Origin: Methylophaga sp.
Lineage (GTDB): Bacteria > Pseudomonadota > Gammaproteobacteria > Nitrosococcales > Methylophagaceae
Length of the DNA: 64,000 bases
Assembly: GCA_011053005.1 (NCBI GenBank)
Contig: DRHW01000019.1
Location: forward strand, 1-64,000
Direction: 5' to 3'
Position 1 is the first letter of the stretch. Every line of letters begins with the position of its first letter. The position numbers and the translations under genes were made by a program. Shown piece by piece: positions 1,819 to 49,294 of this stretch. The notes under the pieces were generated by a model. That model did not search any database. It was given only the letters and a program-made list of their open reading frames with translations, and had not been told where the DNA came from.

Positions 1819-2577
1819 CTATACTGGATTATCAATATCTATAAATTGATGTTGAATATCAAACTGCTGAGCAAGATGTTCGCCCAAGGCCTTTACGCCA
1901 TAACGCTCGGTGGCATGATGGCCTGCTGCAAAGTAATTGATACCTAATTCACGCGCTAAATGCACCGTCGGTTCTGAAATCTCACCACTTATAAATGCAT
2001 CTAGACCAAGCACTGCAGCCTGTTCAATATAGCCTTGTGCTGCTCCTGTACACCAGCCAATGGTTGTAATGGGTCGATCATGTCCTTGTATCACCATCGG
2101 TTCTCGTCCTAATGTACGACGAATTTGAGCGGTTAACTCAGCGACGGATTTAGGTTCATTTAAACAACCACACAATGCGATCGCTGGATCGCCAGTTCCT
2201 GAAATACGACCATCAGTTTCTAAATCAAGCAATCGAGCCAACTGCGCATTATTACCTAATGTTGGATGAGCATCGAGCGGTAAATGATAAGCAATTAAAT
2301 TCACATTATTCATCAATAACTGCTTCAATCGACGTTGTTTAATACCCGTGACTCGCGGGTCTTCACCTCGCCAAAAATAACCATGATGAACCATTATTGT
2401 ATCGGCATCTAAATCTAGTGCAGCATCAAGCAGGTCTTGGCTTGCCGTGACTCCACTGACTATATTATTAATGTATTCCGTACCTTCAACTTGCAGGCCA
2501 TTCGGACAATAATCTTGAAACCTATTCGGCTCCAATAAAGTATCAAGATAAGATAGAAACTCAGATCGCGTTATCAT
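1819..2577 (-). CDS. Nif3-like dinuclear metal centre hexameric protein (YbgI family)
   Basis: MITRSEFLSYLDTLL...DYCPNGLQVEG...MVHHGYFWRG...LPLDAHPTLGNN...GHHATERYGVKAL; start at 2577 preferred to the upstream ATG at 2610. Confidence 0.92.
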   Translation of the reverse strand: MITRSEFLSYLDTLLEPNRFQDYCPNGLQVEGTEYINNIVSGVTASQDLLDAALDLDADTIMVHHGYFWRGEDPRVTGIKQRRLKQLLMNNVNLIAYHLPLDAHPTLGNNAQLARLLDLETDGRISGTGDPAIALCGCLNEPKSVAELTAQIRRTLGREPMVIQGHDRPITTIGWCTGAAQGYIEQAAVLGLDAFISGEISEPTVHLARELGINYFAAGHHATERYGVKALGEHLAQQFDIQHQFIDIDNPV

Positions 2578-2633
2578 CAGGCTAAATTCCGACAACAATA
2601 AATTTGTCACTATAGCAAACTGGGGACCAAATA
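2484..2633. repeat. 150-bp direct repeat, copy 1 (5' end and upstream region of the nif3-like gene)
   Basis: Aligned by eye to 5705-5854 at constant offset 3221; one mismatch (a2551 vs g5772). Confidence 0.97.
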
Positions 2634-2982
2634 ATTTATTAGTGATAAAACCATCACTTTAACCTGAATAATCGTCAATTACATGTCACGCGAACTTCAT
2701 AACTGATTAGAAAAAAATCACAACTCGAAATAAGTCAATTACTTAGCAATATAAAAACTATTTACAACCCTACGTTTCTGCCGATAAATATCAGAAAGAT
2801 ATTGGCAGCCTTGATGGCTTACACCCGCAGGTCAGCGTACTCGATAAATAATTAATCCATGGCTTAGTTCGACTTCATGCGTTGACGCCCCTATCTTCCG
2901 GCATCTTCGTCATATCACCAAGCTATCGTATCCTGAAATACGTCGATTATACGGTTGAGTTAAATTTACCATGAGAAATTTA

Positions 2983-3010
2983 AGGAATAATTCCTATAGG
3001 AATTATTCCT
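2983..3010. promoter_or_regulatory. Perfect 28-bp palindrome AGGAATAATTCCTATAGGAATTATTCCT upstream of the TonB-dependent receptor; candidate operator or hairpin
   Basis: Sequence equals its own reverse complement; followed by the 12-bp palindrome TAGTCATGACTA at 3010-3021. Confidence 0.6.
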
Positions 3011-3034
3011 AGTCATGACTACTATCTCGATTCG

Positions 3035-3064
3035 ATTAAAACAAGCAACAGCTACTGTTTTAAT
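3035..3064. promoter_or_regulatory. Inverted repeat ATTAAAACA-N12-TGTTTTAAT in the receptor leader
   Basis: 9-bp perfect arms seen directly; overlaps a second inverted repeat TTTTAATA-ATA-TATTAAAA at 3058-3076. Confidence 0.4.
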
Positions 3065-3093
3065 AATATATTAAAATTCAGAGAGAAAAATAA

Positions 3094-5256
3094 ATGACTC
3101 TAAAACCAACATTCATCAGTACGGCCATACTATTATCAGTATTGCCTATTACTTATGCAGCACAAGCCGAGGAGCAAGCGACTGCCAAAATCGAAAAATT
3201 AACAGTCACCGGTATTCTGCCGGACAAACTTGAAGCTATTGCAGGCTCATTTGATGTTATTGATGAAGAATATCTAGAGTCTCGCCGACCATTATCTATC
3301 AATGAACAACTAAGAACAGTACCGGGTGTAATGGTTGTGCCTGATGGCAGCATGAGTTTTGATTTAAACATAGGTATTCGTGGGCAGGATCCACGCCGAA
3401 GTGCAAAAACGATGGTGATGGAAGATGGTATGCCACTTCAATTAGCACCCTATACAGATCCTGTTAACCATTATGCGACGCCCTCGACTTCTGTCAGTCG
3501 TGTAGAGGTTATTAAAGGTGCAGGGCAAATTCTGTATGGCCCACAAACATTAGGTGGCGCGGTAAATTTTGTGACGAAACCTGTTCCACGAAATGGTGAA
3601 GTTGAAGGCAGTGTAACCTCACGCTTTGGTAATCAGGATTTCAGCGGTTTGCATGGTAATATCGGCTGGGGTAATGAATTAGGCGGATTCATGTTTGAAT
3701 ACTCACAAGTCCAAGGCGATGGCATTTATAACGACAGTGAATATGACGTTAAGGACTATCGTTTCAAAGGTGAATTGAGCATTACTGATCGCCAAACAAT
3801 AGGTATCAAATTAGTCCATACCAACGATCGTCGTAATCAAACTGAAAATTACTTAACCCGAGATGAATATGCAAGTGATCCCTACTCTCATCCAACGGTA
3901 GAACTCGACGAATGGGAGCAAGATCGCGATGTGGTTCAGTTAACGCATAAATTCGAAGTGAATGATAATTTCACTTTGAATTCTCAAGCTTACTACACAG
4001 ATACTTTCCGTAACGGTTTACGTGGAAGCAATAGTGGCCGATTAGTAGATGGGCAATGGGTATCACGTTTACGTAATTGTGATGCAGCAAATAGTGGTGC
4101 TGGAGCGGCCAATATCACTGAATTAGGCACCGAAGATATTAATGTTTGTGGTGGTCGTCATGCCCCTCGTCAGTATTACACTTGGGGAGCAGAAAGCAGA
4201 GCAGATTTTGGTCATACTTTATTTGGACTTCAAAATGATGCCATCATGGGTATTCGTTATCATCAAGAAACGGCTCATCGTAAACAAGTCTTTGCGACCA
4301 ATACGGCTCAACGTGAAGATTATGAGCTAGCATTACGTGAAGGTGAAGATCGTGAAGGGGCAACCCTTGATGCCTATGCATTATCTTACTATGCTCAAAA
4401 CACCAGTTATATTGGTAACTGGTCAGTAACGCCAGGTTTTCGCGTTGAAGATGTTCGTACACGAGACAGCGATGAATTCTCTTCTGACCGCGCTTCTGAT
4501 AGTTACACTGAGTTATTACCAAGCTTTGGCGTTGCTTGGAATGGCATAGCTAATACAACCATTTTTGCTGGGGTTCATAAAGGTATTTCACCTGCACGTG
4601 CTGATCGAGAGTTTAGTAGCCCCGGTGCGCGTGCTGAACCTGAAGAAAGTACCTTATTCGAATTAGGCATGAGAAGTAACTACTTCAAAGGTATTGCTGT
4701 GTCTAGCACTTTATTCCACAACAATATCGAAAATACTATTGTAGATAATGGTGGAACATTTGATAACAGTGGAGAAAGTGAGCAACAAGGTCTTGAATTA
4801 GCCGGACGTATAAACTTTGGTGATATCTATAACCAGACCAATAATATTTATTTATCAGGCGCCTATACCAACCTATGGACGGCCGAGTATAAAAAAGCAT
4901 CAGACCCAGCTAATGATGGAAATCGTATGCAGTATGCACCAAAGCACTTGATGAACATCGACTTAGGGTACGAACATACTAGTGGTATCGATGCACGCAT
5001 TGGTGCACAGCTTGTCAGTAAACAATTTGTTGATGATGAAAACACCCGCATTGAGAGTGAAAACGGTATTGAGGGTACAATCCCTAGTTACACGATTTGG
5101 AATGCAACTGTTAACTATTACATTCCGGACACCAGCGTGACCTTATTTGCTAGTGTAGAAAACTTATTTGATAAAGAGTTTTTGGTCAGCCGTAACGAAG
5201 GTAAGCTAGCGGGACGTGAACGTCTGTTCTTTGGCGGTATCACATACGACTTTTAA
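3094..5256 (+). CDS. TonB-dependent outer membrane receptor (FecA/siderophore-receptor-like)
   Basis: 720 aa with signal peptide; plug domain IRGQDPRRSAKTMVMEDGMPL..., VEVIKGAGQILYGPQTLGGAVNFVTK; C-terminal beta strand ending in F. Confidence 0.93.
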   Translation: MTLKPTFISTAILLSVLPITYAAQAEEQATAKIEKLTVTGILPDKLEAIAGSFDVIDEEYLESRRPLSINEQLRTVPGVMVVPDGSMSFDLNIGIRGQDPRRSAKTMVMEDGMPLQLAPYTDPVNHYATPSTSVSRVEVIKGAGQILYGPQTLGGAVNFVTKPVPRNGEVEGSVTSRFGNQDFSGLHGNIGWGNELGGFMFEYSQVQGDGIYNDSEYDVKDYRFKGELSITDRQTIGIKLVHTNDRRNQTENYLTRDEYASDPYSHPTVELDEWEQDRDVVQLTHKFEVNDNFTLNSQAYYTDTFRNGLRGSNSGRLVDGQWVSRLRNCDAANSGAGAANITELGTEDINVCGGRHAPRQYYTWGAESRADFGHTLFGLQNDAIMGIRYHQETAHRKQVFATNTAQREDYELALREGEDREGATLDAYALSYYAQNTSYIGNWSVTPGFRVEDVRTRDSDEFSSDRASDSYTELLPSFGVAWNGIANTTIFAGVHKGISPARADREFSSPGARAEPEESTLFELGMRSNYFKGIAVSSTLFHNNIENTIVDNGGTFDNSGESEQQGLELAGRINFGDIYNQTNNIYLSGAYTNLWTAEYKKASDPANDGNRMQYAPKHLMNIDLGYEHTSGIDARIGAQLVSKQFVDDENTRIESENGIEGTIPSYTIWNATVNYYIPDTSVTLFASVENLFDKEFLVSRNEGKLAGRERLFFGGITYDF

Positions 5257-5284
5257 GGTATTACGTTTGTAATTGCTTGAGACG

Positions 5285-5322
5285 GGAGCTAAGTACGACT
5301 GAACATCGTCGTGGTTAGCTCC
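5285..5322 (+). terminator. Stem-loop downstream of the TonB-dependent receptor, possible terminator without U-tract
   Basis: GGAGCTAA...ACGAC / GTCGT...TTAGCTCC pairing; no T-run follows. Confidence 0.4.
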
Positions 5323-5640
5323 ATCATTCTAGATAATGGATTAAAAAATCATAATTATCCACGTTGCTCTATTGTCTGTATTAAATCTAGTCCTAGTGAC
5401 CTAAATAAAGTCACTTAGATCAAAAATATCTTGAAAAAACGGCTTAATATCACGATTTAATAACATCTAAATATTACGACATTCATTGCCCTTGTGACGA
5501 TAGTGTAGGACTCTACTCCCGTAAGTAGTCACTACTTTACATCTCTGATATATATCACTTACTACTTAAAAGCTATAAGAAGAAGGTTCTTTATCTCGCT
5601 GTAAATAACAGTGCTCACCTAAAGTAACATCTTAATCCCC

Positions 5641-5854
5641 AAATCCAACGCAGCATCAAGCAACTCATTTCTTTACCTTACCCCTATATTTAATGTAATC
5701 ATGACTTCAACTTGCAGGCCATTCGGACAATAATCTTGAAACCTATTCGGCTCCAATAAAGTATCAAGATAGGATAGAAACTCAGATCGCGTTATCATCA
5801 GGCTAAATTCCGACAACAATAAATTTGTCACTATAGCAAACTGGGGACCAAATA
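5641..5854 (-). pseudogene. Relic of the nif3-like gene 5' end, including direct repeat copy 2
   Basis: 5705-5854 is 149/150 identical to 2484-2633; 5641-5704 reverse-translates in part to LDAALDL, matching LLDAALDLDAD of the intact gene but diverged; ORF 5673..5912 is this relic. Confidence 0.85.
5705..5854. repeat. 150-bp direct repeat, copy 2 (immediately upstream of the DUF4126 gene)
   Basis: 149/150 identity to 2484-2633, same orientation. Confidence 0.97.
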
Positions 5855-5856
5855 CT

Positions 5857-6531
5857 ATGGAAGCAGTTAATATCATCGCACTCAGCATGGGTGCCGCATG
5901 GGCGAGTGGCATTAATCTTTATGCAACTATTGTCATGCTCGGCTATATGGGAATGACAGGAAATATAGATCTTCCGCCTGGTTTAGAAGTCCTTTCTGAT
6001 CCTATGGTGATGGGTGCAGCAGCCGTGATGTATTGCGTAGAGTTTTTTGCTGACAAGGTGCCTGGCGTAGATTCTGGCTGGGATACACTTCATACTTTTA
6101 TTCGTATTCCTGCTGGCGCGATGTTGGCCGCTGGAGCAATAGGAGATGTCACCCCCGCATTAGAACTCACTACAGCAATATTAGGTGGTGCTTTAGCGGC
6201 TGGTAGTCATGCGACAAAGGCTGGAACGCGTCTATTGATCAATACTTCACCCGAACCCGTCAGCAATTGGACAGCATCGATCACTGAGGATTTATTAGTC
6301 ATAGGTGGATTATGGACAGCGCTCAATCACCCGACCATTTTCATTGTCAGTTTAATCGTCTTTATTATTTTGATGGTGTTGCTATTGCCACGTTTGTGGC
6401 GCTTGCTGAAAAAAGTCTTTCAACGTGTAGGAAGTTGGTTTGGACTGTGTGATGCCCCGCCTGTGATACCCATGCCGAGCGCACCGCTTATAGACAATGT
6501 GATTGAACAATCGAATAAATCTAAGCTTTAG
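5857..6531 (+). CDS. DUF4126 domain-containing membrane protein
   Basis: MGAAWASGINLYATIVMLGYMG...; YCVEFFADKVPGVDSGWDTLHTFIRIPAGAMLA; SHATKAGTRLLINTSPEPVSN typical of DUF4126. Confidence 0.85.
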   Translation: MEAVNIIALSMGAAWASGINLYATIVMLGYMGMTGNIDLPPGLEVLSDPMVMGAAAVMYCVEFFADKVPGVDSGWDTLHTFIRIPAGAMLAAGAIGDVTPALELTTAILGGALAAGSHATKAGTRLLINTSPEPVSNWTASITEDLLVIGGLWTALNHPTIFIVSLIVFIILMVLLLPRLWRLLKKVFQRVGSWFGLCDAPPVIPMPSAPLIDNVIEQSNKSKL

Positions 6532-47581: not shown

Positions 47582-49294
47582 ATGGAAAATACCGAATCAA
47601 TCAGACTTAGTGGTTTAGCAAGACGTCTCATTACTGATGGCCTATTGAGTGAAGAAGACGCACTTTCTGCCCAAAAAAATGCTAAAAAAGCTAATCAGCC
47701 TTTTGTAAGCTATTTAGTTCGCAATAAAATATTAGATAGTCACGCTATCGCCTTAGTTGCATCTCAAGAATTTGGCGTACCTCTTTTTGATATTGATGCG
47801 ATGAATATGGAGGTTGCAGCGACATCACTGATTAAAGAAAGTCTTATTCGTCAACATCATGCTTTGCCGCTATATCAACGTGGGAATCGCCTTCATGTTG
47901 CGATGTCCGATCCTACTAATTTACAAGCATTAGATGAGTATCAATTCAGCACGGGCATGAATACTTTTGCAGTTTTAGTTGAAGAGCAAAAATTAACAAC
48001 GGCCATAGAACGCGCTTTAGATAAAAGTAATGAAAAATTTGATGATTTTGGTGGTGCCGATTTAGATGATATTGATCTAGGCCCAGATGATACCAATGAT
48101 GGCAAAGAGCCTGCTGGTTCAGAAGCCGATGAGACCCCCATCGTACGCTTTATTAATGGTATTTTGACCCACGCCATCAAGTCCGGCGCATCAGATATTC
48201 ACTTTGAACCTTATGAAAAAAAATACCGAGTACGCATTCGTATCGATGGTATTTTGCAAGAAGCTCAGGCAGCGCCCGTTAATCTTGGTGGTCGAATCGC
48301 AGCTCGCCTCAAAGTATTATCCCGTTTAAATATCGCTGAACGTCGTGTGCCACAAGATGGCCGGATGCGACTCAAATTATCGAATACTAAAACCATTGAT
48401 TTCCGGGTAAATACTTGCCCAACTTTATTTGGTGAAAAAATTGTATTGCGTATTCTTGACCCAACCAGTGCGCAACTTGGGATTGATGCTTTAGGCTATG
48501 AACCCGATCAAAAGAAAATATTCATGGAAACCATGCATCAGCCTTACGGCATGGTGTTGGTCACCGGCCCAACAGGTAGTGGTAAAACGGTATCGCTCTA
48601 CACCGCGCTCAATATCTTAAATACCGATGATAGAAATATTTCTACCGCAGAAGATCCCGCCGAAATCAGCTTAGCCGGTATCAATCAAGTTAATATCAAT
48701 CCTGCGGTCGGACTCACCTTCTCTTCAGCGTTAAAAGCCTTTCTTCGTCAAGATCCAGACATCATCATGGTCGGTGAGATTCGCGACTTAGAAACGGCAG
48801 AAATATCGATCAAAGCCGCACAAACTGGTCATATGGTATTTTCAACCTTACACACTAATGATGCGCCACAAACCCTTACCCGTTTAGCCAATATGGGCGT
48901 TCCTGCCTTTAATATTGCCTCTGCGGTCTCGCTTATTATTGCCCAACGACTCGGCCGCCGTTTATGCAGTAAATGTAAAAAATCGGAAGATATTCCTGCT
49001 GAAGCATTATTAGAAGAAGGCTTCACCCAAGCACAAATAGATAAAGGGATGACTATTTTTAAAGCGGTAGGCTGTGAAAGTTGTACTTTAGGCTATAAAG
49101 GCCGTGTCGGCATCTACCAAGTGATGCCTATCTCTGAAGAAATGGGCCGTATCATAATGGAAGGTGGCAATGCGATGACCTTAGCCGATCAAGCCGAAAA
49201 AGAAGGCATTGATGATTTAAGAAAATCCGGTCTTAAAAAAGTTGCTGCGGGCATGACAAGCCTTGAAGAGCTGAACCGAGTAATTAAGGAGTAA
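47582..49294 (+). CDS. pilB: Type IV pilus assembly ATPase PilB
   Basis: GASDIHFEPYEKKYRVRIRIDG; GPTGSGKTVSLYTAL; IMVGEIRDLETAEI; CSKCKK...CESC. Confidence 0.97.
   Translation: MENTESIRLSGLARRLITDGLLSEEDALSAQKNAKKANQPFVSYLVRNKILDSHAIALVASQEFGVPLFDIDAMNMEVAATSLIKESLIRQHHALPLYQRGNRLHVAMSDPTNLQALDEYQFSTGMNTFAVLVEEQKLTTAIERALDKSNEKFDDFGGADLDDIDLGPDDTNDGKEPAGSEADETPIVRFINGILTHAIKSGASDIHFEPYEKKYRVRIRIDGILQEAQAAPVNLGGRIAARLKVLSRLNIAERRVPQDGRMRLKLSNTKTIDFRVNTCPTLFGEKIVLRILDPTSAQLGIDALGYEPDQKKIFMETMHQPYGMVLVTGPTGSGKTVSLYTALNILNTDDRNISTAEDPAEISLAGINQVNINPAVGLTFSSALKAFLRQDPDIIMVGEIRDLETAEISIKAAQTGHMVFSTLHTNDAPQTLTRLANMGVPAFNIASAVSLIIAQRLGRRLCSKCKKSEDIPAEALLEEGFTQAQIDKGMTIFKAVGCESCTLGYKGRVGIYQVMPISEEMGRIIMEGGNAMTLADQAEKEGIDDLRKSGLKKVAAGMTSLEELNRVIKE

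Follow-up and report, generated by a model that had tools for sequence, protein, structure and literature searches.

How did a single TonB-dependent receptor gene come to lie between a nif3-like gene and a DUF4126 gene, enclosed by two nearly identical 150-bp direct repeats, and does the identity of these repeats date its arrival? The question is raised by a locus in a 2.89-Mb genome from the family of Methylophaga, which we analysed in a window of 64,000 bp (bases 1-64000 of contig C19). The features of the locus are listed in Table 1.

Organization of the locus

The two repeats lie on the same strand, match at 149 of 150 positions (99%) and have a spacing of 3221. They bracket one receptor gene, and the gene order is that given in the initial annotation. 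Within the 64-kb window they make up the single 150-nt direct-repeat family, and a self-comparison of the whole contig (198,925 bp), which was the extent of our survey for similar pairs, revealed no other pair comparable to them. The next direct match in that comparison was a diverged tandem duplication at 119429-119781 (L137), of about 200 bp, with 72% identity and an offset of 153 bp.

The nif3 start codon at 2577 is conserved, with orthologue alignments beginning there. Two nucleotides separate the end of copy 2 from the ATG of the DUF4126 gene. Beyond the repeat, copy 1 follows the sequence of the corresponding site in relatives for about 2 more nt (AAATAAT), and copy 2 reads AAATACT there. 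Since this agreement ends 2 nt past the repeat, the duplicated block stops right at the DUF4126 start codon.

Table 1. Features of the nif3-DUF4126 locus, in window coordinates.
Feature	Position	Strand	Evidence
nif3-like gene (DUF34/NIF3), intact, 252 aa; ancestral left neighbour	1819..2577	-	PF01784, E=1e-65; orthologue in the same place in relatives examined
Repeat copy 1: nif3 codons 1-31 and 56 nt of upstream region	2484..2633	.	repeat comparison
Left flank of insert, AT-rich (34% GC)	2634..3093	+	GC count; shuffle test against DUF4126 negative
Decayed copy of genus-specific dispersed intergenic repeat, in left flank	2831..2912	+	77% match, E=3e-11
28-bp perfect palindrome AGGAATAATTCCTATAGGAATTATTCCT, upstream of receptor	2983..3010	.	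self-complementary match
TonB-dependent receptor, 720 aa, FecA-like	3094..5256	+	PF07715 and PF00593
Stable stem-loop 3' of receptor	5286..5322	+	predicted fold, about -24 kcal/mol
Decayed continuation of copy 2: nif3 5' fragment with 8-nt deletion, other indels and in-frame stops	5565..5704	-	orthologue alignment
Repeat copy 2: probably homogenised tip of nif3 fragment, with upstream region now serving DUF4126	5705..5854	.	repeat comparison
DUF4126 gene, 224 aa; ancestral right neighbour	5857..6531	+	PF13548, E=3e-60; divergent from nif3 in relatives

The receptor is absent from the sampled relatives

In 19 distinct relatives whose loci span the site, we found that nif3 and DUF4126 are directly divergent, with one copy of the repeat and no receptor. 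Their start codons are usually about 58 bp apart (up to about 110). These empty-site relatives include the two closest genomes, with 86% identity in nif3 DNA. The proposal of the initial annotation that the two genes were once adjacent and divergent is thus supported, and the empty sites are most simply read as the ancestral state rather than as products of excision.

When the insert DNA was compared with the other 28 genomes of the genus, no match was detected apart from short repeat-like stretches. Likewise, no homologue of the receptor was detected in these 28 genomes, as DNA or as protein, at the thresholds used, and a search of 58 relatives with the protein gave no match at E <= 1e-60. 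In wider samples, homologues came from a few Gammaproteobacteria and were mostly 37-40% identical, and the best one found, in another family, was 46% identical. The empty sites, together with the absence of the receptor from the 28 other genus members, indicate a lineage-specific insertion, and the receptor itself was most likely acquired in this lineage from a distant source. Its GC content and codon usage are like those of the rest of the window, so that composition does not mark it as foreign; this fits an old entry and proves nothing.

The receptor and its flanks

The receptor begins with a signal peptide-like sequence, has a TonB-box-like motif (EKLTVTG) and, as in FecA-type receptors, combines plug and barrel domains (PF07715, 59.9 bits, and PF00593, 139 bits, both above cut-off). 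FecA was also its best match among solved structures in the PDB (E=2e-50). Unlike FecA-type systems, the insert carries no FecR/FecI or transport genes, and identity with the ferric dicitrate receptor was rejected, the score of 204.7 bits being far below the NCBIfam equivalog cut-off of 1100 bits. The receptor may serve in iron-chelate uptake. A weak hint towards iron comes from the neighbours of its distant homologues, which encode a PepSY protein, a ferritin-like protein and two-component genes.

The palindrome upstream of the receptor is a possible operator; no other site with up to three mismatches was detected in the 29 genomes of the genus. Downstream, the predicted stem-loop, which has no U tract, is a likely transcript end. 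A search for Rfam families found none. The decayed dispersed repeat in the left flank belongs to a 132-bp unit (consensus starting CCAGCGAGTCACCGTACTCG) with 17 matches in a sister genome (G001) and two each in two others (G021 and G006). The copy in the flank is the only one in this genome. Its presence suggests that some of the flank has a history within this clade.

A decayed nif3 fragment adjoins copy 2

A blastn comparison joined 5641-5854 to 2411-2633 at 88% identity, revealing a longer stretch derived from nif3, of which copy 2 is only the clean tip. Alignment with orthologues carried the nif3 match leftward to about 5565, the most distal part (5565-5640) aligning weakly, and in shuffle tests the match of the decayed stretch was outside chance. 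Reading from the old nif3 start, the fragment meets stops. The duplicated block is thus at least about 290 bp long (5565-5854) and reaches from the start codon of DUF4126 back to approximately codon 80 of nif3.

The two parts of this block differ sharply. In the decayed stretch, 61 of 144 sites differ from the genome's own nif3, compared with one of 150 in the repeat (Fisher 1.5e-21). Furthermore, the decayed stretch scored higher against nif3 of the closest relatives (98 for L014 and 74 for L013) than against the genome's own nif3 (59), as expected if the fragment had diverged early on this branch. These pairwise scores and the shared-change counts given below were used in place of a tree, which for the decayed 140-bp stretch put copy 2 on a very long branch and left most forks unresolved.

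Gene conversion has probably homogenised the repeat

We defined private changes as sites at which nif3 of this genome differs from that of each of the two closest relatives. In the repeat, 12 of the 13 private changes are present in both copies, compared with none of the 13 in the decayed stretch (Fisher p = 2.7e-6), where the fragment carries the relatives' base at ten sites and a third base at three. At the boundary of the repeat, near-identity gives way abruptly to divergence, and shared private changes occur inside the tract only. These counts indicate that the decayed stretch split off before the private changes arose and that the repeat was made alike afterwards, so that the 150-bp identity is, by this comparison, younger than the duplication. 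The initial annotation had taken this identity as the footprint of entry, a view that is not supported, given the decay of the adjoining 140 bp and its lack of private changes.

The changed codons of the repeat are mostly synonymous (11 of 13 against L013 and 10 of 13 against L014), indicating that the converted sequence evolved as a working gene. The pattern suggests that copy 1 was the conversion template and copy 2 the recipient. At the single mismatch between the copies most relatives carry the base of copy 2, so that copy 1 has probably mutated since the last exchange. Similar signs have been described for gene conversion and concerted evolution in bacteria (PMC6053082), where duplicates are closer to one another within a genome than to their orthologues and a sharp edge separates them from a diverged stretch. 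A whole gene is involved there, whereas here conversion would preserve a pseudogene's 5' tip, which also serves as the upstream region of a neighbour.

Age of the insertion

The divergence of nif3 at fourfold-degenerate sites, counted from the point where this genome parted from its two nearest relatives, is about 0.38 substitutions per site in each lineage, and the decayed stretch has accumulated about 0.36 substitutions per site along its own branch. Both are Jukes-Cantor estimates from about 100-150 sites with wide error, and the dating draws on about 140 aligned positions that include indels. The two values are consistent with a fragment that has evolved without constraint over most of this branch. 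With decay at this pace, by our arithmetic, the 94 coding bases of copy 2 within the repeat would be expected to hold about thirty changes had no conversion occurred; one is observed. The duplication and the insertion are therefore probably old, and the last 150 bp recently homogenised by gene conversion. By these estimates, the insertion would date from roughly the time when this species and its nearest relative separated. Entry near the base of the branch, together with absence from both closest relatives, would mean that the receptor arrived just after that split or was lost there. These readings of conversion and age draw on one genome of this species.

The most important rival reading places the entry recently, with incoming DNA that already carried a diverged or decayed nif3 5' fragment as homology anchor. 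Its far end would have joined illegitimately at the DUF4126 start, and the 150 bp of host sequence would have been duplicated between sister chromosomes, without gene conversion. One event would then yield both the near-identical 150 bp and the divergent stretch beside it, and the steps have precedents: transformation generates duplications by interchromatid integration (PMC3784515), and one-sided homologous capture has been described (PMC3240628). However, the donor would have to lie outside the sampled genus for the receptor and inside this clade for the nif3 fragment, which is closest to L014, and that fragment would have to be truncated and broken by indels beforehand. Furthermore, it would be chance that its decay corresponds to the neutral depth of the branch. 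We consider a recent entry of this kind unlikely.

Proposed history and route of entry

We are fairly confident of the following order: an old one-sided integration at nif3, then decay of the fragment, then recent conversion of the 150 bp. A FecA-like receptor gene of distant origin would have been acquired between nif3 and DUF4126 only in the ancestry of this genome, and at its entry part of the nif3 5' end would have been duplicated together with the shared upstream region (about 290 bp). The event may have been a single crossover, at nif3, of a circle carrying a piece of the nif3 5' end or, alternatively, homology-facilitated illegitimate recombination between sister chromosomes. The nif3 gene would have stayed intact and DUF4126 would have retained its upstream region. 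The redundant nif3 fragment would then have decayed at about the neutral rate except in the 150 bp adjoining DUF4126; these would recently have been overwritten by gene conversion, with copy 1 as the most likely donor and copy 2 as the recipient.

The route that we infer is one-sided homologous recombination at nif3, either Campbell-type or homology-facilitated illegitimate. The right side of the insert is nif3-derived, and in the left flank a shuffle test detected no DUF4126 remnant or homology at the junction. In both known modes, as here, a foreign segment is flanked by a duplicated piece of a host gene without a recombinase, and one end would be anchored by homology; here, however, the event appears old and decayed, and the mode could be either. 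Merodiploids and tandem duplications generated by transformation also resemble the locus in that DNA uptake duplicates host sequence, but those duplications span at least 100 kb between long repeats (PMC3784515), compared with about 290 bp enclosing foreign DNA here. DNA uptake is plausible in this organism, since its genome encodes ComEC and DprA, both above curated cut-offs. The window also holds, at 47582-49294, a gene for a PilB-like type II/IV secretion ATPase with an MshEN domain. The three together fit a capacity for natural transformation.

Neither an integrase nor a transposase gene was seen, the receptor gene is the only large open reading frame of the insert, and no tRNA was found in the 64-kb window, as the initial annotation had noted. 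The insert had no DNA match among plasmids and phages, neither a circle nor a plasmid intermediate was detected, and a 99-base pattern from the repeat had none among viral contigs. Plasmid-encoded matches to the receptor protein were only about 27% identical.

Other explanations of the repeats

The repeats might also stay alike through active cycling, in which the module is excised via the 150-bp copies and re-enters by crossover at the copy that remains. Direct repeats of this size are a RecA substrate, the two copies have traded sequence if they did undergo conversion, and a recombinase-less genomic island of Escherichia coli with short flanking direct repeats does excise (PMC5426353). That island resembles the present locus in that direct repeats bracket an integrase-free cargo; it differs in that its excision has been demonstrated, whereas reversible excision of the receptor would be possible in principle. 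Nevertheless, conversion suffices for the homogenisation, neither plasmid nor phage carrier was seen, and a circle without an origin, once lost, is normally gone for good. We regard active cycling as quite improbable, and marginally more so the idea that the receptor is a recombinase-free switchable module whose cycling in the population keeps the 150-bp copies identical while the fragment rots.

That the second copy is an artefact of assembly is very doubtful: a 150-nt repeat is close to a common short-read length, but each copy has unique flanks, the contig extends over 199 kb, and the unique decayed nif3 stretch joined to copy 2 is not something that an assembler would make up. Least probable is transposition or site-specific integration with target duplication, which same-strand repeats around a cargo and the preference of some islands for gene 5' ends might bring to mind; we rejected it, since a duplication of at least 290 bp far exceeds the target duplications made by transposases and since a recombinase gene, a tRNA and terminal inverted repeats are all absent between the copies.

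Implications

We judge the locus to be an uncommonly readable example of known processes. It illustrates how the identity of flanking repeats can mislead the dating of an insertion: near-perfect repeats would suggest a recent event, whereas the adjoining pseudogene stretch suggests an old one. It also shows a way in which a genome can gain a receptor gene with both neighbours unbroken and no mobile-element machinery in sight. If the module did cycle, outer-membrane uptake and exposure to phages and bacteriocins could vary within the population.
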